NCBI GenBank assembly: GCA_017461545.1
Contig: JAFTXP010000023.1
Coordinates: 1-64,000 of the forward strand
Length of the DNA: 64,000 nt
Reading direction: 5' to 3'
Source of the DNA: Clostridia bacterium
GTDB lineage: Bacteria; Bacillota; Clostridia; UBA1212
Positions 17,602-32,619 of this stretch are shown piece by piece. Made by a program: the position numbers and the translations under genes. The stretch's first letter is position 1. Each line of letters opens with the position of its first letter. The notes beneath the pieces were generated by a model. It was not told where the DNA came from and did not search any database. It was given only the letters and a program-made list of their open reading frames with translations.

Positions 17602-20568
17602 ATGAAAAGAATAATAATTTCAATAACTGCATGTGTTGTAGTTTTAGTGATGTTATGCGGATTGTTATTTTTTATTTTTAATAAGGATGATAAAAAAACA
17701 CAACCTGCTGTAGATACTTCAAATATTTTAAGCGTAGATGACGCCATAACGTATTTTGAAGAAACACAGAAAGATTATGGCTATAAAAATGCACTTTCTG
17801 AATTAAGCGTGAAGAACAATTCATCAATAAATGGTGATAGCTATTATAGGTTGCAACAAAATTATAAAGGACTTCCTGTATATGGCAGAAGTGTTGTTTG
17901 TGCTGCTAATAAATCCGGAGAAATTACTTCACTTACAGGAAATTTAATGGATGTGGAAGAAAGTATTAATCTTATTCCTACGGTATCCTCTGAACAGGTA
18001 TCTCAGTCTGTAAAAAAATATCTTTTAGAGCAAGAAGGATATGAGAATGTCGATAGTTTAAACATAGAGTCATTAGATGAAGAAGATTTATGTATTTATA
18101 ACATAGACGGAGTGTATTTAGCATATTGCGTAAATGTCTATGGATATGAAATCCTTGTTGATGCTCATTCTGCTGATTTTTTACTTGGTGTTCCTACGAT
18201 GTTTACAGCAAACGATGCGGAAATTGGCTATATGTTTTCTGATATAAATCGCGAAAAAGGTTTTCCCGTTGATAAAATTGATAACTACTATGTTATGAAG
18301 GATGTAAATAAAGGTTTATCTGTATATACGTTTAAAGGACAGGTATCTAAGGATGAAAATGGATTTCATTCTGAGATAGCAGATGCTGTAGTAAGCGAAG
18401 ATATTTTGTTTGGAAACACTGAAAAGGAAAAAAAATTAGCATATGAGAATGGGTCACAGCTTTTGTTGAACGTTATTGATATACAGGCATTCTTTAATGA
18501 GTTAGGATTTTCAAATGATGTAAATATAAATCTTTATTATAATGATGGATTTGATGGTGGTGAAAATGCACTTGGAGGAACTTCCGGTAATCTTGGTGTG
18601 GTCTCTATGGGAACCGTGATGGGTGTAGACAAAATTGATGTCATAGCTCATGAGTACACTCATTTTGTAAGCAGGAGGACTGTTGATTGGATTGGTCAGG
18701 CAGAAAACGGTGCTATAAATGAAGCTATGTCAGATATTTTTGGCGAGTTAATTGAGGCAAAAATCCAAAACAGAAAAGTTGATTGGAAGATGTATAATTT
18801 CAGAAATATTGCAAAACCTCAAGAATCAAAAAATCCCAGTTCTTATAAAGGAAACTACTGGGGCTCCGCTGAACTTGTTTCAAAAGAAAATGATTATGGA
18901 AATGTTCATAAAAATTCAACTGTCATATCTCATGCTGCATATTTGATGTGGAATGGTATTGATGGGAGTGAGAACAAAAAGTTTTCTACGGTTGAATTAG
19001 CAGAACTTTGGTATAGAACAATGCTGATAATGCCTGCGGACTGTGATTTTAATAGTTGCAAGCAGTTGGTTATTCTTGCAGCTAATTCTATGGAGTTACC
19101 AAAAGATAAGATTAATTGTGTAGTGGAAGCGTTTGATATGGTTGGAATTACCGGTGTCAAAAATGATAATTCGGCCAAGTTGTATGTGGCGTCTTCGAAC
19201 AGCAAATTATATGTTTACGGTGGAGACGGAACATTATATGACAATTATACGGTGTATATTAGTGGAATTAGAAAATTATACGGTCCAATATTGAGCAGAG
19301 TATATAATAAAAAAATAGATATATCTGATAAAGAACCATATACTCTTGAACTCGAAAATGGATTTTATTCTTTTACAGTGTCCGACAATGCTAATCCGAA
19401 GAATATATACACGTTTAATGTACTTATTTTTTTCAATAATGAATCTTTCGATATAGTTGTTCCTGCAAATTTTGGCGGTATTCCTGTGAGGGGATCTGTA
19501 TCGGTTGTCGAAGAAATTGCTGGGATTGAAATAAATAAACCTATATCTGATGCTGCTGTGAAGATATCTTCTGATGGAGGAGCTTCTTATGAATCGGTTG
19601 ACTTTACGGATATAAAAAGTGTTTTTGAAACATATGTATCTGATGGTGATTATTCAATTATTGTTGAATCCAAGGGATACAAAAGGTGGTCAGGTACTTT
19701 TACTGCAGGTTTTGATAAAGATGTTTATATTAATATTTTGCTAGAAAGAGAGATATTTCCTGTATTGGAAGAAAGGTGCTATGATTCGGAAGGAATACTT
19801 AAAAATGAAAAAACTTGTGAATATACTGAAAGAGGTTTACTGAAATGTGAAACTTACAAATCATGTGGTGTTCTGCAAGAAAGATTACAGTATGAGTATA
19901 ACTCTAATGATATATTGATCAGAAAGACTAAAGAATATGGCACACGCAAGACTGTTGAAGAGTATGATGAAACAGGAAAACTAGTTCGTGAAACAATAAC
20001 TGATGGAACATCCGAATGGATTCATAATTATGATAATAATTCTACAGAAACAGAAGGTGAAAAAATTCCCGCTGATGAGTATGTTTATGACGATTCAGGT
20101 AATTTGATAGTTGAAAAATCATGGTATAATAATGAACGCGCGGATATATTCTATTATTATTATGACCAAGAAGGTCGTCTTATATTTTCTTATTTGTCTC
20201 AACATTTTGGTGACATTCCTTCATTGTATGACGAAAACGGACAACTGTTACGTAGAGAATTAACTGAAGAACAGATGTCAACTTGGGGTAGTTATTGTGA
20301 TATTTATGAATATGATGAGAGCGGTAATTTAATTAAACACGAACAACATGCTGAAGATGATTATGTAGATATAACATTGTACACATATGATGAACAAAAT
20401 CGTGTTTCTTCTGTAAAGTCATATGGTGGTGGTATAGATTATGATGATGCAGGAATATATACATATGAATATGATGAGTATGGAAATGTCTTGAGGAAAA
20501 TATGGTCGAAACGGTCAGTAACTCAAAAAATATGGGAATATAAATATGATTATTCTATGAGAGAATAG
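17602..20568 (+). CDS. Thermolysin-like (M4) metallopeptidase with C-terminal accessory domains
   Basis: 988 residues. Residues 5-28 form a signal or anchor segment, about 40-250 an FTP/propeptide-like region, then the M4 catalytic domain. H350-E351-Y-T-H354 and E374 (NEAMSD) are zinc ligands with the exact thermolysin spacing, and H436 in DYGNVHKNS matches the catalytic histidine. After about residue 530 come beta-rich segments, one resembling a carboxypeptidase-regulatory-like fold near 630-710. A C-terminal run of YD-type repeats (EYDESGNL, TYDEQNRV, EYDEYGNV) from about 730 to 985 follows. It should act outside the cell, possibly membrane-anchored since no cleavage site is clear. Codon use is more AT-rich than its neighbours, so it may be acquired. 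Confidence 0.9.
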   Translation: MKRIIISITACVVVLVMLCGLLFFIFNKDDKKTQPAVDTSNILSVDDAITYFEETQKDYGYKNALSELSVKNNSSINGDSYYRLQQNYKGLPVYGRSVVCAANKSGEITSLTGNLMDVEESINLIPTVSSEQVSQSVKKYLLEQEGYENVDSLNIESLDEEDLCIYNIDGVYLAYCVNVYGYEILVDAHSADFLLGVPTMFTANDAEIGYMFSDINREKGFPVDKIDNYYVMKDVNKGLSVYTFKGQVSKDENGFHSEIADAVVSEDILFGNTEKEKKLAYENGSQLLLNVIDIQAFFNELGFSNDVNINLYYNDGFDGGENALGGTSGNLGVVSMGTVMGVDKIDVIAHEYTHFVSRRTVDWIGQAENGAINEAMSDIFGELIEAKIQNRKVDWKMYNFRNIAKPQESKNPSSYKGNYWGSAELVSKENDYGNVHKNSTVISHAAYLMWNGIDGSENKKFSTVELAELWYRTMLIMPADCDFNSCKQLVILAANSMELPKDKINCVVEAFDMVGITGVKNDNSAKLYVASSNSKLYVYGGDGTLYDNYTVYISGIRKLYGPILSRVYNKKIDISDKEPYTLELENGFYSFTVSDNANPKNIYTFNVLIFFNNESFDIVVPANFGGIPVRGSVSVVEEIAGIEINKPISDAAVKISSDGGASYESVDFTDIKSVFETYVSDGDYSIIVESKGYKRWSGTFTAGFDKDVYINILLEREIFPVLEERCYDSEGILKNEKTCEYTERGLLKCETYKSCGVLQERLQYEYNSNDILIRKTKEYGTRKTVEEYDETGKLVRETITDGTSEWIHNYDNNSTETEGEKIPADEYVYDDSGNLIVEKSWYNNERADIFYYYYDQEGRLIFSYLSQHFGDIPSLYDENGQLLRRELTEEQMSTWGSYCDIYEYDESGNLIKHEQHAEDDYVDITLYTYDEQNRVSSVKSYGGGIDYDDAGIYTYEYDEYGNVLRKIWSKRSVTQKIWEYKYDYSMRE

Positions 20569-23265: not shown

Positions 23266-23318
23266 ATCAGAACATTTCTACGCACTGAAACATAATTTAA
23301 ATTGAAGGTGTGATTAAA

Positions 23319-23585
23319 ATGTTTAATTGGTTAAAAACTGAATGGAACAAAAAAGGCTGCTTTTACAAAGTGGTGAGAACTTTTTTGCAGACCTTTGCCG
23401 TTGCATTGATGACAGAGATTACCGCCGTGCTGTCGGGAGTAATGGAAATATCGTGGCAAATGGTATTGACTGTCGTTTTGATCCCTTCAATTTCGGCCGG
23501 GATTACGGCTGCAATCAATAAGTTAAGCGGCAAAGACTGTAAAGCAACAGAAAATGACGAAAGCGAAGGTGTTAAGAATGAGTGA
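23319..23585 (+). CDS. Holin-like small membrane protein
   Basis: 88 residues from the ATG at 23319, eight bases after GAAGGTG. A basic, aromatic N-terminus is followed by two hydrophobic segments (about 22-42 and 48-68) separated by a short turn, and a charged tail (KDCKATENDESEG), as in phage holins of the two-segment type. It overlaps the endolysin start by eight bases. Holins make membrane holes that let an endolysin reach the wall. No other phage gene lies on either side, so this looks like a remnant or a host-domesticated lysis cassette. Confidence 0.7.
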   Translation: MFNWLKTEWNKKGCFYKVVRTFLQTFAVALMTEITAVLSGVMEISWQMVLTVVLIPSISAGITAAINKLSGKDCKATENDESEGVKNE

Positions 23586-24399
23586 TTATATTGACAGACC
23601 GATTGCGGTGAAGCCTACTGCAACAAAGGAGCAGGCGATTGCCTGGGCGAAAAAAAACGGCGCAGCTCAGGTTATGATTGACCTTGCACCGGCGTTCTGG
23701 GCGACTGCTTCGGCAGTAGGGATAAATCCGGTTTTTTCGTACTGCCAGACGGCGTATGAAACAGCGTATATGACCTTCAGAGGAACTTTACTTGATACTA
23801 CATATAAAAACACTGCGGGAATAAAAAGAACGGATGAGGAAATTAAAAAGATTATGGCGGAGAAATATCCCGATGCTACATCGTCGGACGATATTGCGGA
23901 ATGTCATATGAAATTTAATTCATGGGAGGACAGTATAAAGGCGCAGGTGGATCACTCGGCGCTTTATGCGGGTCTTTCGGGTTATCCGAAAAAATATCCT
24001 GAGGAAACCAATGACCCGAGACATTTTGACTGGTGTTTCGGTATTGGCAAAACTGTTCTCACATGGGCGACGTATTATTCTACAAATTCATATGGTGAAA
24101 GATTGCTTGAAATGATGGCCGAGTTGGAGTCAATGCCTGTTTCTGCCGATGTTGCGTATGTCAACATTACATTGGCACAGCTGAAGTCCGGAATGTATAA
24201 GGCAAGTCCGTATACAAAGCAGGTGAAGGCTATGCAGCAACTTTTGATTGCAAACGGTTTTCCGTGCGGCCCGGCAGGTGCGGACGGAAACTTCGGAACA
24301 ACTACAGAGGAAGCTGTAAAAGCTTTTCAAAGGTCTCTCGGTAAACCTGACAGCGGTGTCTGCGGCATTGGAACATGGTCTGCGCTTCTCGGTATATAG
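23578..24399 (+). CDS. Endolysin: glucosaminidase domain plus peptidoglycan-binding domain
   Basis: 273 residues from MSDYIDRP; the start overlaps the holin stop. Residues about 30-180 are a glucosaminidase-type domain (FSYCQTAYETAYMTF with the likely catalytic glutamate, then KFNSWEDSIKAQVDH, YAGLSGYPKK and DPRHFDWCFG), the form found in clostridial phage lysins. Residues about 200-273 are a PG_binding_1 domain (YTKQVKAMQQLLIANGF, GNFGTTTEEAVKAFQRSLG). There is no signal peptide, so export would rely on the upstream holin. A bidirectional terminator follows. Confidence 0.88.
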   Translation: MSDYIDRPIAVKPTATKEQAIAWAKKNGAAQVMIDLAPAFWATASAVGINPVFSYCQTAYETAYMTFRGTLLDTTYKNTAGIKRTDEEIKKIMAEKYPDATSSDDIAECHMKFNSWEDSIKAQVDHSALYAGLSGYPKKYPEETNDPRHFDWCFGIGKTVLTWATYYSTNSYGERLLEMMAELESMPVSADVAYVNITLAQLKSGMYKASPYTKQVKAMQQLLIANGFPCGPAGADGNFGTTTEEAVKAFQRSLGKPDSGVCGIGTWSALLGI

Positions 24400-24414
24400 T
24401 TGATTTTTCATAAA

Positions 24415-24445
24415 ACCGCCGCCGTGCGAATTGCATGGCGGCGGT
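24415..24445. terminator. Bidirectional terminator between endolysin and GT8-acyltransferase genes
   Basis: ACCGCCGCCGTGC (24415-24427) pairs with GCATGGCGGCGGT (24433-24445), one G-U pair, with a T run on the minus side. Confidence 0.75.
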
Positions 24446-24467: not shown

Positions 24468-26237
24468 TTATTGAGCTTTTTCTGTAATATAGCTGAGCGG
24501 AATCCCGTAGACATCTTCGTATATGTCTTTCCATGCATTGAAGTTTTTTTCCATCATCTGACTGACACGTTTTCCGTTAGGAAGGTCGGTATCCGGATAG
24601 ATCGGTGCGCTTATGTGGATAGTGTATTCCTGAACATAGAAACCATCGTCACCCATTATATCAGAATCCTGCATTGTGATGAAGCAGGGGAGAATCGGAA
24701 CATTGCTCTTTGCCGCAAAAGTAAAGGCTCCTTTTTTGAACGGCTTTGGTTTTCTGTAGTTCCACCACATGCTCTGCTCAGGGTAAATTAATACAAAGTG
24801 TCCGTCACAGAGAAGCTTTTCGGTTGCTTCCATAAATTTTTTCAGAGTCTGATGATTTGATGAGAGCGGAAGGGTATTGCAGTGGCGCATCAGGAAACCG
24901 TAGAAGCCCGGGAATGATGTGTAGTTGCCCTCACGTATGACTCTGTAGAAGGTTCTGTCAGGCTGGTTTGCGGCTTCATATGCAATCTGAATTGCAAAGC
25001 TGTCAAAAGCATTGAAGTGGTTGCAGGTTATTACTGCGCCGCTTTTGAGGTTTTGAAAATGCTCAATACCCTTTATTTCCTTGATAATCATTTTCTTTTC
25101 GTCGATTATGTTGTTGACGAATTTTCTGGCCATCATGTACGCAAATTTTGTTTTGATCTTCTGACTCATTCCTTTTCTGAAATAGTCAATCTCATCCGGC
25201 ATCAGAACTCTTGACGGCGGGTCATCTTCCACGTCCTGATCGAATTTACCGAGGCGTTCGTATTCCTCTATTTTCTTCAGAATAGAGACTCTGTCATTTG
25301 CCCTTTCAGCTTTGTTTACACGGTTTAAGTAATTGTCCTCTCTGTTTGTCTCCGAAATTGCCATGTTCAAAAGGTTGTCGCATGATTTTATGTCACGTTC
25401 CCTCTCTTCGTCGGTATATGAATCAAGCACTTTTAAAATGTCTTCGTACACGGAGGTTTCCTTTGCGTAATTCCAGAAAATGTCACCGTGTCTGCAATCG
25501 CGGAAGTGCCACGGTTTGCTTACCATTATGTAGTGCAGAACATATGCCTGCTCGATAGGGTACGGAATATCGCCGAATATTTCGGTGTTCCATCTCTGGT
25601 CAAGCCAGTAAACATGGTCCTTGCATATCAGATTGAGATAATCTTCGTCCTGCGTAACGATGAAATCGTATGTGTGAAGATATTGAATGAATTTATCGAG
25701 TACAAAACGCATTCTGAACTGATTGCAGTTTATGAGAAGCAGTCCTGCGTTAAAGAAGGTATATCTTGAAATGCCCAGTACCTTTTCAACATACGTTCCG
25801 TAAACATCTTCCTGTACCATTGCCTGTTCATGGCAGGCTCCGATATATGCGTCTTTTATATCGGTGTCGTAAAGTTTGCTCACATCGCCCTGCACAACGG
25901 TGTCGCTGTCAATGTAGATTGCCTTGTCGTACTCGGGGAACATTTCCGCGATAAAAAATCTGTAATAGGTGGTTTTTGAATAATAATCTCTGAGAGGAAG
26001 CTTTTCGGAGATTGAAACGAGGTAATCGGATACATCGTCAAAAGTAATCTCAAAGTTTTCATTTGAAAGCTCCTGTGTTTTTTCCTTCATCGCGTCTGTA
26101 ATGCCGGTGTGAAGAATGTGTACATGGTACTTTCTGTCCTTTGATGCGTTTTTTATCATTGAATACAAAGAAACTATTGTATATTTTACAAAATTGTCAT
26201 CACATGCGTAAAAAATCGGTATTTCTTTATTTGTCAT
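24468..26237 (-). CDS. GT8 glycosyltransferase fused to a PlsC-type acyltransferase
   Basis: 589 residues. Residues 1 to about 290 are a family 8 glycosyltransferase: the start IPIFYACDDNFVKYTIVSLYS, the metal-binding DSD at 110-112, and the C-terminal HYIMVSKPWH. A charged linker follows. Residues about 365-585 are a lysophospholipid acyltransferase-like domain with NHFNAFD (H407-x4-D412) and VLIYPEQSMWW replacing the usual EGTR-like motif. No membrane segment is clear. Having sugar and acyl transfer in one chain suggests sequential building of an acylated glycolipid. It is the last gene of an operon, overlapping the upstream GT8 gene by 11 bases. Confidence 0.9.
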   Translation of the reverse strand: MTNKEIPIFYACDDNFVKYTIVSLYSMIKNASKDRKYHVHILHTGITDAMKEKTQELSNENFEITFDDVSDYLVSISEKLPLRDYYSKTTYYRFFIAEMFPEYDKAIYIDSDTVVQGDVSKLYDTDIKDAYIGACHEQAMVQEDVYGTYVEKVLGISRYTFFNAGLLLINCNQFRMRFVLDKFIQYLHTYDFIVTQDEDYLNLICKDHVYWLDQRWNTEIFGDIPYPIEQAYVLHYIMVSKPWHFRDCRHGDIFWNYAKETSVYEDILKVLDSYTDEERERDIKSCDNLLNMAISETNREDNYLNRVNKAERANDRVSILKKIEEYERLGKFDQDVEDDPPSRVLMPDEIDYFRKGMSQKIKTKFAYMMARKFVNNIIDEKKMIIKEIKGIEHFQNLKSGAVITCNHFNAFDSFAIQIAYEAANQPDRTFYRVIREGNYTSFPGFYGFLMRHCNTLPLSSNHQTLKKFMEATEKLLCDGHFVLIYPEQSMWWNYRKPKPFKKGAFTFAAKSNVPILPCFITMQDSDIMGDDGFYVQEYTIHISAPIYPDTDLPNGKRVSQMMEKNFNAWKDIYEDVYGIPLSYITEKAQ

Positions 26238-27072
26238 TGTTTAAAACCTCTCTGTTGAATTTTTCTTTTAAGTAAATGTATTCATATAAGATATCGTCAA
26301 ACTGATAATATCTGAATACTTTATGGACCTTGCTCACATGCCATTGCTTGATGTTGTCCGTGTGAGGATACGGAAGCCAGAAGAGTCTTTTTGAAAAGTG
26401 TCTTACAACAGTATGTTTGTGAAGGAACTTCTGGTCATTGAATCTTTGCGGCAGCATTTTCTTTTTTGTCGTTGATCGGATCAATGCGCTCTGGTCTGCA
26501 AAAACAAGCTTTTTTGTTTTGATAAGTTCGCGTGCTTTTTCCAGAATTTTTGTCTCGCGCATCCTTTTCAGGTTGAAGAGCAGAACCCCTGCGTTTATGT
26601 AGTTCGGCTGTATAAGATATTTTCCGTAGTGGTCGCGTGCTGCGGCGTATTCGTAATCGCTGACATCAATATCATACAAAAGATGAATGTCTCTGCTAAA
26701 CATTATATCTGCGTCCAAATACAGTATTTTGTCGGGCAATTCTTCTACATTATCCGCAAAAAGTCTTATCAATGTATACGGCGAACAGTATGCGTCCTCG
26801 TTCGGGCAATTGCTGAATTCGCTCAAATACATATCCGTGACGTCGAGTTTTATTACACGGTTTTCTGAGTTGTATTGTTTTATTACCTGTTCAAAGAATG
26901 ATATCTGCTCCTCCGTGATGGGAACGTATGTGTCCTTTATGTGAGAGACATCCATGGTAAAAACATATATTGTAAAAGGTTCTTTCGAAGATGTTCTTTT
27001 GAGTATTGAAAGAGTGCTTGTTAAAAGTCCGTCAAAGACTTTATCATTTCCGCAAAACAATATGTTAACCAT
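26227..27072 (-). CDS. GT8 family glycosyltransferase
   Basis: 281 residues. VNILFCGNDKVFDGLLTSTLSIL is the family N-terminus, ILYLDADIMFSRDI the D-x-D metal/UDP-sugar site near residue 122, PNYINAGVLLFNLKRMRE the acceptor-side motif and VRHFSKRLFWLPYPH the C-terminal histidine region. GT8 enzymes use UDP-glucose or UDP-galactose with retention; the acceptor is unknown, and the neighbours point to a lipid. It overlaps the acyltransferase gene upstream by eight bases and the fusion gene downstream by 11, so all three are coupled in translation. Confidence 0.9.
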   Translation of the reverse strand: MVNILFCGNDKVFDGLLTSTLSILKRTSSKEPFTIYVFTMDVSHIKDTYVPITEEQISFFEQVIKQYNSENRVIKLDVTDMYLSEFSNCPNEDAYCSPYTLIRLFADNVEELPDKILYLDADIMFSRDIHLLYDIDVSDYEYAAARDHYGKYLIQPNYINAGVLLFNLKRMRETKILEKARELIKTKKLVFADQSALIRSTTKKKMLPQRFNDQKFLHKHTVVRHFSKRLFWLPYPHTDNIKQWHVSKVHKVFRYYQFDDILYEYIYLKEKFNREVLNNDK

Positions 27073-27850
27073 CCGGATCCTCCTTTTTTATATATTGAAT
27101 CATAACAACATCCGAATTTTCCGCTCTTTTGCACATACATTCATATATTTTGTTCCTGAGTACGGTTTTTTGCTCTTTAGCCGGCAGGTTTTTGTCCGGT
27201 AAGAACGGCCCGTCAATATATGTAACTATCCGCGGCTTCTTTGAATACTTTCTCTTTTGGTAAGTATTTGTGAAACAAAATGACGGAACTCCGAGCCTTA
27301 CAGGGTATGCGAACGATGCGTCGGTGAACGGTCTGATTTTAGTGTAATAAGGCCAGATGTGAGCTTCGGGATATATTACCACCGCTTTGTTTTGTGATAT
27401 CCTCTTTTCCACAGCCCTGATGAAATTTTTATAGGCTGTCATATCGTCAGGCAGGGGAAGAGCTCCGAGTGAAGGATTTATCTTTCCGAGCACGGGCATT
27501 GAAACATTATTCGGGTGAACTATAACATAGTCCTCCTGCGGAAAATTCAGCATACTCGGCATGAATGCGTCGCCGATGTCCTGCGTGTGGTTTCCGTACA
27601 TGAAGTATCCTGTTTTTTTATAGTCTTTAAGACATTCTCGTCCTATCACCTTGTGCCGGAATACTGCCTTTGTGTAAAGGTATGCGATAGGTGTCGCTAT
27701 GATTCTGTACCAGAAGAAATGAGTGAAGGCTTTGAAGCGGGATTCGTGGATATATACATAGTTTCCGTCAATTTTCTTGGGTGTTATCTGCGCGAGTGAA
27801 AATTCATCGTTCAACTCATCGCTGTAATATATCACTTTTCTTTTATCCAA
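27065..27850 (-). CDS. Lysophospholipid acyltransferase family protein (PlsC-like)
   Basis: 261 residues. Motif I reads YGNHTQDIGDAF, where the histidine (88) is followed by aspartates at +3 and +6 in place of the classical H-x4-D; this spacing seems to be a subgroup feature. VVIYPEAHIWPYY is the motif III equivalent, and KIRPFTDASFAYP follows. It probably acylates a lipid intermediate at the membrane surface, although only one weakly hydrophobic segment is seen. A TGATATAAT extended -10 at 27895-27887 could drive it apart from the FakB gene, which ends 56 bases upstream. Confidence 0.85.
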   Translation of the reverse strand: MDKRKVIYYSDELNDEFSLAQITPKKIDGNYVYIHESRFKAFTHFFWYRIIATPIAYLYTKAVFRHKVIGRECLKDYKKTGYFMYGNHTQDIGDAFMPSMLNFPQEDYVIVHPNNVSMPVLGKINPSLGALPLPDDMTAYKNFIRAVEKRISQNKAVVIYPEAHIWPYYTKIRPFTDASFAYPVRLGVPSFCFTNTYQKRKYSKKPRIVTYIDGPFLPDKNLPAKEQKTVLRNKIYECMCKRAENSDVVMIQYIKKEDPDG

Positions 27851-27906
27851 GCCGTCCGTCTCCTTTCTTCATATTTAATCTTCGCTATTATATCACAGTA
27901 TCACAG

Positions 27907-28785
27907 TCATTTTAACCTTACATCTTCCGTGCTTTCAAAAAACAGCGCCAAGGCGTCAGGTCCGAGGTATGAGCCTGTGACAGGTTCATATTCTGCAATG
28001 ATTATTTCCCGGGGAGGATTGTTGCGTTTTAAAAGTTTTGCAAGCAACTCCGCGTCCTCATAACTGTTTGCATGGGCAATTCCGACGGTTTGTTTCTCCG
28101 GGTTCTTAACCAATGTATCGTATTTCTCTGCTAATTTTTCAATTACAGATTTGCGTCCCTTTACTTTTCCTATGGTGACTATTTTTCCCTCTTCGTTGCC
28201 CTTTAAAAGCGGTTTGATATTCAGTATCGTGCCGACAATCGCAGAGGCATTTGACAGACGGCCTCCTCTGCGAAGGTGCATAAGATCGTCTACAGTAAAT
28301 ACCTGATAGATGTTTTTCCTGTAGTTTAACAGGAACTCTGCTGTTTCATCGACGCTCATTCCGTTTTTTCTGTATTCTGCTGCTTTCAGGACAACCAATC
28401 CCTCTCCTAGTGATGCTCCTAAACTGTCAATAAGATGTATCTTTCTTTGAGGATATTTTCTTTGAAGTTCCTTGCGTGCAGTCTCTGCTGATGAATATGA
28501 ACCGCTGATTCCCGAGGACATACTCACAAAGAGAATGTCGCTGCCTTCCTCCAAAATCGGTGAAAAGGTTTCAATATATTTCTGCGGCGTAATCTGAGAA
28601 GTAGTAACCCTCATTCCGCCTTTTATCAACTCGTAATATTCTCTGCAATTGAAAGTCTCTGTATCGGTGCAAGTAAATTCTTTTCCGTCAATATAATACG
28701 AAAAAGGAATTGCCTGTATGCCTTCGCTTTTCAGATATGGCGTGGGAAGGTTTGCCGATGTATCGGTTATAATTGTAAAGCTCAC
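27907..28785 (-). CDS. fakB: DegV family fatty-acid-binding protein (FakB type)
   Basis: 292 residues. FTIITDTSANLPTPYLKSEGI is the N-terminal DegV motif. VTTSQITPQKYIETF and FVSMSSGISGSYSSAE form the fatty-acid carboxylate site, VDDLMHLRRGGRLS is the family signature and PVTGSYLGPDALALFF the C-terminus. FakB proteins hold a fatty acid for phosphorylation by FakA, present at 7203-8903. It is placed directly before two acyltransferases and two glycosyltransferases on the same strand, which links exogenous or recycled fatty acids to that pathway. Confidence 0.9.
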   Translation of the reverse strand: MSFTIITDTSANLPTPYLKSEGIQAIPFSYYIDGKEFTCTDTETFNCREYYELIKGGMRVTTSQITPQKYIETFSPILEEGSDILFVSMSSGISGSYSSAETARKELQRKYPQRKIHLIDSLGASLGEGLVVLKAAEYRKNGMSVDETAEFLLNYRKNIYQVFTVDDLMHLRRGGRLSNASAIVGTILNIKPLLKGNEEGKIVTIGKVKGRKSVIEKLAEKYDTLVKNPEKQTVGIAHANSYEDAELLAKLLKRNNPPREIIIAEYEPVTGSYLGPDALALFFESTEDVRLK

Positions 28786-30401: not shown

Positions 30402-30473
30402 AGCCAATGGTGGGAATCGAACCCACGGCCTATTCATTACGAGTGAATTGCTCTACCCCTGAGCCACATTGGC
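30402..30473 (-). tRNA. tRNA-Thr (anticodon CGT)
   Basis: 72 bases on the minus strand. Acceptor GCCAATG pairs with CATTGGC, D-arm GCTCAGGGGTAGAGC, anticodon stem ATTCA/TGAAT with loop CTCGTAA (anticodon CGT, reading ACG), variable loop AGGCC, T-arm GTGGG-TTCGATT-CCCAC. CCA is not encoded. The discriminator is T. No duplicated 3' end (attachment site) was found to the left. Confidence 0.96.
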
Positions 30474-30665
30474 AAATACCACAGGCGAAATTATACCATT
30501 GAATTCAACCTTTTACAAACTAAAAATTTTAATTTTATAATTTTTTATTACATTTTAATTTTGTAAATATATATGCTCCGGTTATTGCTATTTCATCCAA
30601 CACAATATATAGTACATTTGTTGGCTTAATAGCCGAATATGTAGATTATGTGGAGGTCATTGATA

Positions 30666-31133
30666 ATGGAAGAGGAAATGTTGACAGCGTCCTGTTATGA
30701 CGGGGTTTGTAGTAATTATAACGGACATTGCTACAATGCTGTTACAAAAGACAAAAGAAAACTCCTTCATAATACAAAAGATAAGACAGAGAATAAAAAT
30801 ATTCAAATAATGCGTTTGCTTTACGGGGTAGGAGTACATATAACCAGTATAGGCTTTTATTATTTTTATGATGCGATACATATTTGTATGAACGATGTTC
30901 TTGCAGTAACGAATGCACAGAAAAATATCTATATGGTAATAGCGGAAAGATATAATGTATCATACAAAAGCGTTGAAAGAGCAATGAGAGTAGCATTTAC
31001 GGAAGCGGTATCAATGAGAGCTGTTCAACTGTTTAAAAATGAAATGCAAATTTTTTCTGATGGCAAAGGGGACGAAATGACTTCTATAGAGTTTATTTGT
31101 TTAGCGGCGTTTGCCGTTTCAAATTCCAATTAA
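30666..31133 (+). CDS. Orphan Spo0A C-terminal-domain protein (no receiver domain)
   Basis: 155 residues from the ATG at 30666, nine bases after GGAGG. After a short Cys-containing N-terminus (ASCYDGVCSNYNGHCYN), residues about 45-150 match the Spo0A DNA-binding domain: IMRLLYGVGVHITSIGFYYFYDAI, then IYMVIAERYNVSYKSVERAMRVAF, the recognition helix area. The phosphoacceptor receiver domain of Spo0A is missing. It may therefore bind 0A-like boxes without phosphorylation control, compete with Spo0A, or respond through its cysteines. It stands alone between tRNA-Thr and a mannosyltransferase gene, which starts 67 bases after its stop. Confidence 0.85.
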   Translation: MEEEMLTASCYDGVCSNYNGHCYNAVTKDKRKLLHNTKDKTENKNIQIMRLLYGVGVHITSIGFYYFYDAIHICMNDVLAVTNAQKNIYMVIAERYNVSYKSVERAMRVAFTEAVSMRAVQLFKNEMQIFSDGKGDEMTSIEFICLAAFAVSNSN

Positions 31134-31200
31134 TAATTAATTGCAAGGCAAGAGCAATTGTGATATTTTTATTTATGCCCACAAGGAGAACTGCTTTGTT

Positions 31201-32619
31201 ATGAATTTGCATAAAAGATTTTTAGAAGAATTGAAAAAAATTGAGACATGGATTTCACTTGCAGGCGTTACAGTAGCTGTAGTGATATTTGTATGTTGGA
31301 TTTGTAACACAGAGGATATATCGGTACCGGGTGGGATTGCCGCGGCATTAAGCTTGGTAATGTTTCTTGGTGTTTGCCTTAGATTTGTACCTGCATGGAC
31401 AGGTTTTTGGAGAAAAAACATATCAGATATAAACAATATTGAGACTGATATAGAGATAAATAAAAGAGATATAAACATAACCGCTTTGAAAATATTTTTT
31501 GTATTTAATGCCGTTTGTTTTTTTATAATAATATTTGTATATGCGATCAGATCGGCGTTATACGGAGTACAGCCTTTTGGAGAATCATTAGAGTTTTGGA
31601 AGTGTCTTGACAGCGGACATTATCTCGACATAGCAGAAGATTGGTATTTATCAACCGGCGAGTGGGACAGACTGGTTCAGCTTGTTTTCTTACCCGGATA
31701 TCCCTTTATTATAAAAATTTTTAATGTTTTATTCGATAATTATTTATATGCAAGCCTTGCGGCTTCTTCGATGTTTTTCGGAGCAGCAGGTGCAGTATTT
31801 TACAAACTTATGCGACTGGATTACGATAAACAGACTTCCTTGAGAGCTATAAAGTATTTGTGCCTTATTCCCGGGGTCTTCTTTTTCGCGGCGCCGATGA
31901 GTGAAAGTTTGTTTTTGTTTTGCAGTGTTTCCTGTATATATTTTGCAAGAAAGAGAAGGTGGCTCGCGGCTGGCTTATTGGGCGGTTATGCGGCGCTGAC
32001 AAGATCTCTCGGCATTGTATTGCTCGTGCCGTTAATCTTTGAATTTGTTTCATATTTGATAAACAAAGAATATCTGAAGGATACTGACGCAAAAAAACGG
32101 TATACAAAAGCTGTTATGGCTTTACGCGCGGCATCAATACTTTTGATTCCTGCAGGTTTCGGAGTGTATTGCTACATAAATTACCGGGTTTCAGGTGATC
32201 CGTTTAAATTTCTGTATTACCAGAAGGAACATTGGGGTCAGGAGTTTGGCTTGTTTTTTAATACTGCATCATATCAGACGGATCGTATGATAAGTGAGTT
32301 TAGTGATAAATTCAATTTGATGCTCGGATTGTGGCTTCCGAATTTGATAAGTAGTTTTTCGGCTCTTTTGACATTGTTTGTCACGGTGAAGCGGATACGC
32401 CCGAGTTATGTTGCTTATGCTATTGCATACTTCTTTGTCGCAATCGGGGCAACGTGGCTTTTGAGTGCGCCGAGATACCTTGCGGCACTTTTTATTTTGC
32501 CGATGGGATTTGCGGTAATTACGAACAAACCAAAGTGGGATATGACGTTAACGGTGGTTTGTACGGTTGCATCTGTTTTTTATCTTTTCGCATTTGTAAT
32601 GCGTTGGCAGGTATGGTAA
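31201..32619 (+). CDS. PIG-V-like mannosyltransferase, integral membrane
   Basis: 472 residues from the ATG at 31201; an AAGGAGA lies about 12 bases before it, slightly far. A start further upstream (TTG at 31141) would add a polar, unlikely extension. Ten or more hydrophobic segments are visible. DSGHYLDIAEDWY (acidic first-loop motif), FLPGYPFIIKIFN and AALTRSLGIVLLVP match the GT-C mannosyltransferases related to PIG-V, which use polyprenyl-phosphate-mannose on the outer face of the membrane. The acceptor is unknown, perhaps a wall polymer or protein. It is monocistronic with a strong terminator. Confidence 0.82.
   Translation: MNLHKRFLEELKKIETWISLAGVTVAVVIFVCWICNTEDISVPGGIAAALSLVMFLGVCLRFVPAWTGFWRKNISDINNIETDIEINKRDINITALKIFFVFNAVCFFIIIFVYAIRSALYGVQPFGESLEFWKCLDSGHYLDIAEDWYLSTGEWDRLVQLVFLPGYPFIIKIFNVLFDNYLYASLAASSMFFGAAGAVFYKLMRLDYDKQTSLRAIKYLCLIPGVFFFAAPMSESLFLFCSVSCIYFARKRRWLAAGLLGGYAALTRSLGIVLLVPLIFEFVSYLINKEYLKDTDAKKRYTKAVMALRAASILLIPAGFGVYCYINYRVSGDPFKFLYYQKEHWGQEFGLFFNTASYQTDRMISEFSDKFNLMLGLWLPNLISSFSALLTLFVTVKRIRPSYVAYAIAYFFVAIGATWLLSAPRYLAALFILPMGFAVITNKPKWDMTLTVVCTVASVFYLFAFVMRWQVW

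Follow-up and report, generated by a model that had tools for sequence, protein, structure and literature searches.

Three genes on the minus strand of the window, the 64,000-nucleotide stretch of DNA analysed here (lying on contig 16 of a source genome of 1.37 Mb that is 69% complete), form a conserved unit. They encode PlsC1, an acyltransferase of the LPLAT superfamily; GT8a, a stand-alone GT8 glycosyltransferase; and GT8b::PlsC2, in which a second GT8 domain is fused to a second acyltransferase. The arrangement recurs at 74 of 80 loci, those of the best 80 of 384 fusion relatives, which is far beyond chance. We propose, with a probability of roughly 0.58, that the cassette encodes a dedicated pathway of two modules, each combining a GT8 enzyme with an LPLAT, that makes an acylated diglycosyl lipid, with acyl-ACP as the probable acyl donor. 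The enzyme families are known; what is new, as variants, is the way they are combined, the fusion of GT8 with an LPLAT, and the PlsC1 subfamily with its H-x5-D motif. No description of this gene set was found among the titles listed for glycolipids, GT8 enzymes and acyltransferases in the open-licence literature, and the operon core, which is real and conserved, is apparently undescribed there.

Gut and rumen Clostridia are abundant, and their membrane-glycolipid and teichoic-acid-anchor enzymes are mostly without assignment; the report on UgtA and UgtB of C. difficile dates from as late as 2025 (PMC11898633). This gap becomes directly testable with a compact, conserved cassette that includes a fusion of sugar- and acyl-transferring enzymes and that at least one cultured strain carries. 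Acylated glycolipids would be plausible ligands of the host immune system, and the PlsC1 group offers an LPLAT subfamily with a catalytic motif that is one residue longer.

Organisation and conservation of the cassette

The fusion gene (26237-24468, minus strand; 589 aa) is the last of four consecutive minus-strand genes and is preceded by GT8a (27072-26227; 281 aa), PlsC1 (27850-27065; 261 aa, TTG start) and a DegV gene (28785-27907; 292 aa, GTG start), the latter being an optional neighbour outside the conserved cassette. The ends of PlsC1 and GT8a overlap by 8 bp and those of GT8a and the fusion by 11 bp; the gap from DegV to PlsC1 is 56 bp. ORFs and Pfam matches thus confirm the original prediction of four same-strand genes, the last three overlapping. 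A promoter-like site between DegV and PlsC1 (27887..27915, minus strand; TTAAAA-17-TATAAT, with TG before the -10; 10/12) could allow transcription of the cassette without DegV. The two best promoter-like matches in the region (10/12) lie around this gap, but 23 such sites were found in the region versus 12 expected, so that the match in the gap is only suggestive. A terminator-like hairpin lies 3' of the fusion (24411..24445, minus strand; ACCGCCGCC, a 13-nt loop and GGCGGCGGT, then TTTT); it was read by eye and is absent from the scan output, its loop exceeding the maximum of the scan. The search for RNA elements near the operon found none, with only a tRNA at 30402, and a phage origin was rejected since comparison with viral contigs gave no match. 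Elsewhere in the window, a glucosaminidase with a peptidoglycan-binding domain is encoded at 23310-24399, convergent with the fusion gene and with a small holin-like ORF before it. A stand-alone Spo0A C-terminal domain protein (30648-31133) adjoins the gene for a PMT_2-type membrane glycosyltransferase (31141-32619), and a thermolysin-type (M4) peptidase of 988 aa (17602-20568) has RHS/YD-like repeats at its C-terminus.

Scanning one genome per species yielded the 384 fusion relatives, and all counts out of 80 given here refer to the best 80 of these. Nearly all of the 80 are named as Clostridia, the majority being MAGs from gut or rumen; the isolate genome Lachnospiraceae bacterium AC2029 is among them. 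The 74 loci have PlsC1, GT8a and the fusion on the same strand in the order seen in the window, and 67 of them also keep the GT8a/fusion overlap. PlsC1 and GT8a are retained together: 74 loci have both, 6 have neither and none has just one. One of the six loci without them is at a contig end; PlsC1 is absent genome-wide from the other five lone-fusion genomes, which may be incomplete. Since either both or neither of PlsC1 and GT8a are present and lone fusions exist, PlsC1 plus GT8a look like one module and the fusion like another. The fusion does not occur mostly in unrelated contexts, an outcome that would have spoken against the original prediction; its context is constant at 74 of the 80 loci, supporting the view of PlsC1, GT8a and the fusion as one functional unit. 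At one locus (L108:8919-11764) the fusion gene is partly tandem-duplicated, with a 350-aa piece preceding a complete copy.

Within the class, a PlsC1 profile matches 49 of 391 genomes, approximately 20 of them strongly, and a set of 398 genomes from across the phylum gave just one weak match outside the window's own genome. In other families of Clostridia, the four domains are unfused in three genomes with the gene order of the window (G095, G670 and G682) and in three with the order GT8a-GT8b-PlsC2-PlsC1 (G532, G542 and G594); three further genomes have the fusion within this second order (G575, G652 and G719). That rearranged and split versions stay together is strong evidence for one pathway. 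An apparent fusion in G095 was rejected because it consists of two ORFs separated by a stop; G670 and G682 are likewise split.

Motifs and structure models of the enzymes

Both GT8 proteins score above the PF01501 cut-off (GT8a, 69 bits; fusion, 156 bits). GT8a has the motifs D120-A-D122, D193-Q194 and H225, and the GT8 half of the fusion (residues 7-245) has D110-S-D112 and H235...KPW243; in homologue alignments the metal-binding and active-site motifs, including D120/D122 and D110/D112, are invariant in both proteins. For the GT8 half, the structure model of the fusion (pLDDT 87.5) gave LgtC and WbbM as matches; the acyltransferase half was modelled too, the match list consisting of GT8 proteins only. 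The best solved-structure match, at 27% identity, is the GT8 galactosyltransferase LgtC, which shares the DxD and the C-terminal H...KPW with the fusion but has lipooligosaccharide as its target and lacks an acyltransferase domain. The acyltransferase half (residues 388-520; PF01553, 57.6 bits) has a canonical H-x4-D motif I (H407-x4-D412; 85 of 87 rows). Its motif III, YPEQ-x-M-WWNYRKP, is invariant over the 87 rows except for S489 (80/87) and M490 (86/87), so that the predicted replacement of EGTR by E487-QSM is borne out, E487-Q being invariant.

PlsC1 is more divergent, with a PF01553 score of 24.8 bits (cut-off 23). Of two proposed readings of its unusual motif I, H88-x5-D94 holds (76 of 78 PlsC1 proteins) and H-x2-D was rejected, D91 being variable and kept in only 54 of 78. 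H-x5-D is also present in distant PlsC1 relatives, and two remoter homologues align as H-x4-D with a one-column gap; judged from these alignments, H-x5-D looks like a one-residue insertion into H-x4-D. Motif III lacks EGTR as well and reads YPE(162)AHIW, whose P, E, A, H and W are the same in all 78 proteins. A sequence search against solved structures gave nothing useful for PlsC1, and its structure model (pLDDT 82) best matches PatA (E 1e-6), followed by LpxM and Thermotoga PlsC. The resemblance to PatA is distant (TM 0.47, 10-11% identity) and the two differ in motif I, which is H-x4-D in PatA, but the distance from the histidine to the motif III glutamate is 74 residues in both (H88-E162 in PlsC1, H126-E200 in PatA). 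PatA acylates a mannose of PIM, and its catalysis relies on a glutamate of block 3 instead of the acid of H-x4-D (PMC4792965). PlsC1 might employ the same glutamate chemistry, although the His-Glu spacing alone is not discriminating. In another LPLAT, VexE, the acyltransferase for the Vi antigen anchor, motif I has Tyr at the position of the acid (PMC9597891), showing that this acid can be absent from a working enzyme.

An LPLAT fold is not enough to tell which acceptor PlsC1 uses. In PlsC and GPAT enzymes, the EGTR motif faces a phosphate-bearing acceptor; it is absent from both cassette acyltransferases, which score 39.8 and 12.9 bits with TIGR00530, below its cut-off of 102.95. This shortfall, together with EAHI and EQSM in place of EGTR, sets both enzymes apart from PlsC proper, i.e., 1-acyl-G3P acyltransferase, and two other PlsC-like genes in the source genome match the PlsC family better.

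Neighbouring genes

An MdoB/LtaS-like membrane phosphoglycerol transferase of 680 aa is encoded next to 16 of the 80 cassettes (best 80 of 384), in three arrangements: downstream in either orientation, or upstream of the cassette. All 16 fall within one 19-row clade of the tree, and the association was probably gained once, yet it survived rearrangement. The MdoB-like gene is not found in the nearest cassette-bearing relatives of the window, except in G025, which has a lone fusion. Genes of the sulfatase fold are absent from the source genome of the window, which is 69% complete. Three lone fusions are directly followed by a gene for a membrane protein of 184-203 aa (L117:4159-4713, L118:10511-11065 and L119:270-881), and both proteins tested (L117 and L119) belong to CrtO, glycosyl-diaponeurosporenoate acyltransferase. 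Like the proposed cassette enzymes, CrtO acylates a sugar, but it belongs to another protein family and is not encoded in the window. A gene for a flippase-like protein, one of two having been tested, precedes GT8a in two cassettes of family f192. Outside the cassette, PlsC1 relatives adjoin GT4 genes or a GT8::MGDG-synthase fusion; better family matches of the GT4 neighbours include glycolipid synthases, but well below the cut-offs of those families. Together, the MdoB/LtaS-like, CrtO, flippase-like and GT4 or GT8::MGDG-synthase neighbours favour sugar-acylated glycolipids. PlsC1 relatives paired with GT4 and with no adjoining GT8 occur in several families (L172, L174, L175 and L169).

The original prediction included a fatty-acid carrier, the DegV protein, in the gene set and held that the set could use FakA-made acyl-phosphate products. 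A DegV gene adjoins about 5 of the 80 cassettes (best 80 of 384). The DegV protein of the window belongs to the DegV fold family (Pfam DegV, 236.6 bits; TIGR00762, 259.8 versus a cut-off of 99.7) and falls below the cut-off of the FakB1 equivalog NF038249 (148.5 versus 350), a comparison with FakB1 that leaves room for other FakB subtypes. In an alignment it keeps Thr62 and Ser95 of FakB1 and has Tyr273 in place of S. aureus His270, which acts with those two residues in the carboxylate network of FakB1 (PMC8892158). The DegVs encoded downstream of the fusion and one from another family with another gene order form one subfamily (55-76% identity), which is only 21-25% identical to the window DegV. 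This subfamily lacks the usual C-terminal H-x-GPG stretch and, to judge by that, may not bind fatty acids as FakB does; three of the linked DegVs (L035:8522-9355, L067:12483-13325 and L176:7414-8250) end in GLCSFYAEKGG instead. A link with DegV thus turns up repeatedly, though at few loci, and the window DegV is a separate case; DegV was rejected as a core cassette member on frequency and subfamily. The window does contain a FakA/YloV gene (TIGR03599, 531 versus 396; NF038248, 443 versus 975). However, FakAB acyl-phosphate feeds PlsY, which uses acyl-phosphate, and PlsC uses acyl-ACP (PMC12594616), making direct use of acyl-phosphate by the cassette acyltransferases unlikely; FakAB could possibly supply the cassette indirectly, through PlsX.

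Proposed pathway and alternatives

We infer substrates, step order, acyl donor and product as follows. The fusion would place a first sugar on an acceptor lipid in the membrane, in the simplest case diacylglycerol, and acylate it, and GT8a and PlsC1 would add and acylate a second sugar. The product would be an acylated diglycosyl lipid at the cytoplasmic face, with acyl-ACP as the probable donor; in one clade the MdoB/LtaS-like enzyme would then add glycerophosphate, giving a (phospho)glycolipid or an LTA-like anchor. An acylated glycolipid, as originally predicted, is retained as the best-supported product class for PlsC1, GT8a and the fusion, without a core role for DegV. To our knowledge, glycolipid synthases do not usually belong to GT8, which counts against this reading. 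The PatA system resembles the cassette in that glycosyltransferases (PimA/PimB') work with an LPLAT whose target is a sugar within a membrane glycolipid, but it differs in acceptor family and glycosyltransferase families (PimA is GT4) and has no GT8 fusion. LTA anchor synthesis in Firmicutes (LafA/LafB, UgtP, BgsA/BgsB; UgtA/UgtB in C. difficile) likewise involves two sugar additions that yield a dihexosyl lipid, and the clade adjoining an LtaS/MdoB-type enzyme adds to the likeness. The known LTA glycolipid-anchor enzymes are GT4 or GT28, whereas the cassette has GT8 enzymes plus two acyltransferases.

Polysaccharide assembly is a frequent role of GT8 enzymes, and the acyltransferases might instead modify a nucleotide sugar or growing glycan. 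The cassette would then make the acyl-bearing terminus of a surface polysaccharide or of a secondary polymer, not a free membrane glycolipid. VexE provides a precedent: it has the LPLAT fold, acylates C-6 of UDP-GlcNAc for an anchor lipid and has PatA and LpxM as its nearest structures, as does PlsC1 (PMC9597891). VexE itself has a TPR-LPLAT architecture, a UDP-GlcNAc substrate and a place in a Gram-negative capsule locus. Neighbour clustering revealed no polysaccharide export or polymerase family recurrently beside the cassette, those recurrent neighbours that can be named being lipid-type; we therefore consider such a role unlikely. It is rather improbable, too, that the two acyltransferases are LPA or glycerol acyltransferases supplying diacylglycerol to the GT8 enzymes, for an ordinary diglycosyl-diacylglycerol with unacylated sugars. 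They share their fold and Pfam family with PlsC, and one relative adjoins the GT8::MGDG-synthase fusion, but the loss of EGTR and the two better PlsC candidates in the genome argue against it.

Direct feeding of both acyltransferases with FakA-phosphorylated, FakB-bound exogenous fatty acid has in its favour the DegV gene 56 bp upstream, the FakA/YloV gene in the window, the distinct DegV subfamily beside cassettes of two families and differing gene orders, and a MarR gene near some loci. Given the rarity of DegV at cassettes, the different subfamily of the window DegV, which lacks the FakB1 histidine, and the use of acyl-ACP by PlsC, we regard this as very improbable. Finally, alternating GT8 and LPLAT steps could place fatty acids on the disaccharide's own sugars, yielding a Gram-positive lipid-A-like lipid that makes up much of the membrane or anchors a polymer, a reading that we consider a long shot; the host gut Clostridia are mostly without MGDG-synthase-type glycolipid enzymes.

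PF06925 is absent from 13 of 14 fusion-bearing genomes (Fisher p 0.003). Complementarity with MGDG synthase was nevertheless rejected, as the whole order is nearly without PF06925 whether or not the cassette is present (1/31) and the exclusion is confounded by ancestry. A second kind of GT8 fusion occurs in a glycolipid-like setting at L182:5995-8754, where a GT8::MGDG-synthase (GT28) gene is directly followed by a PlsC-like gene.
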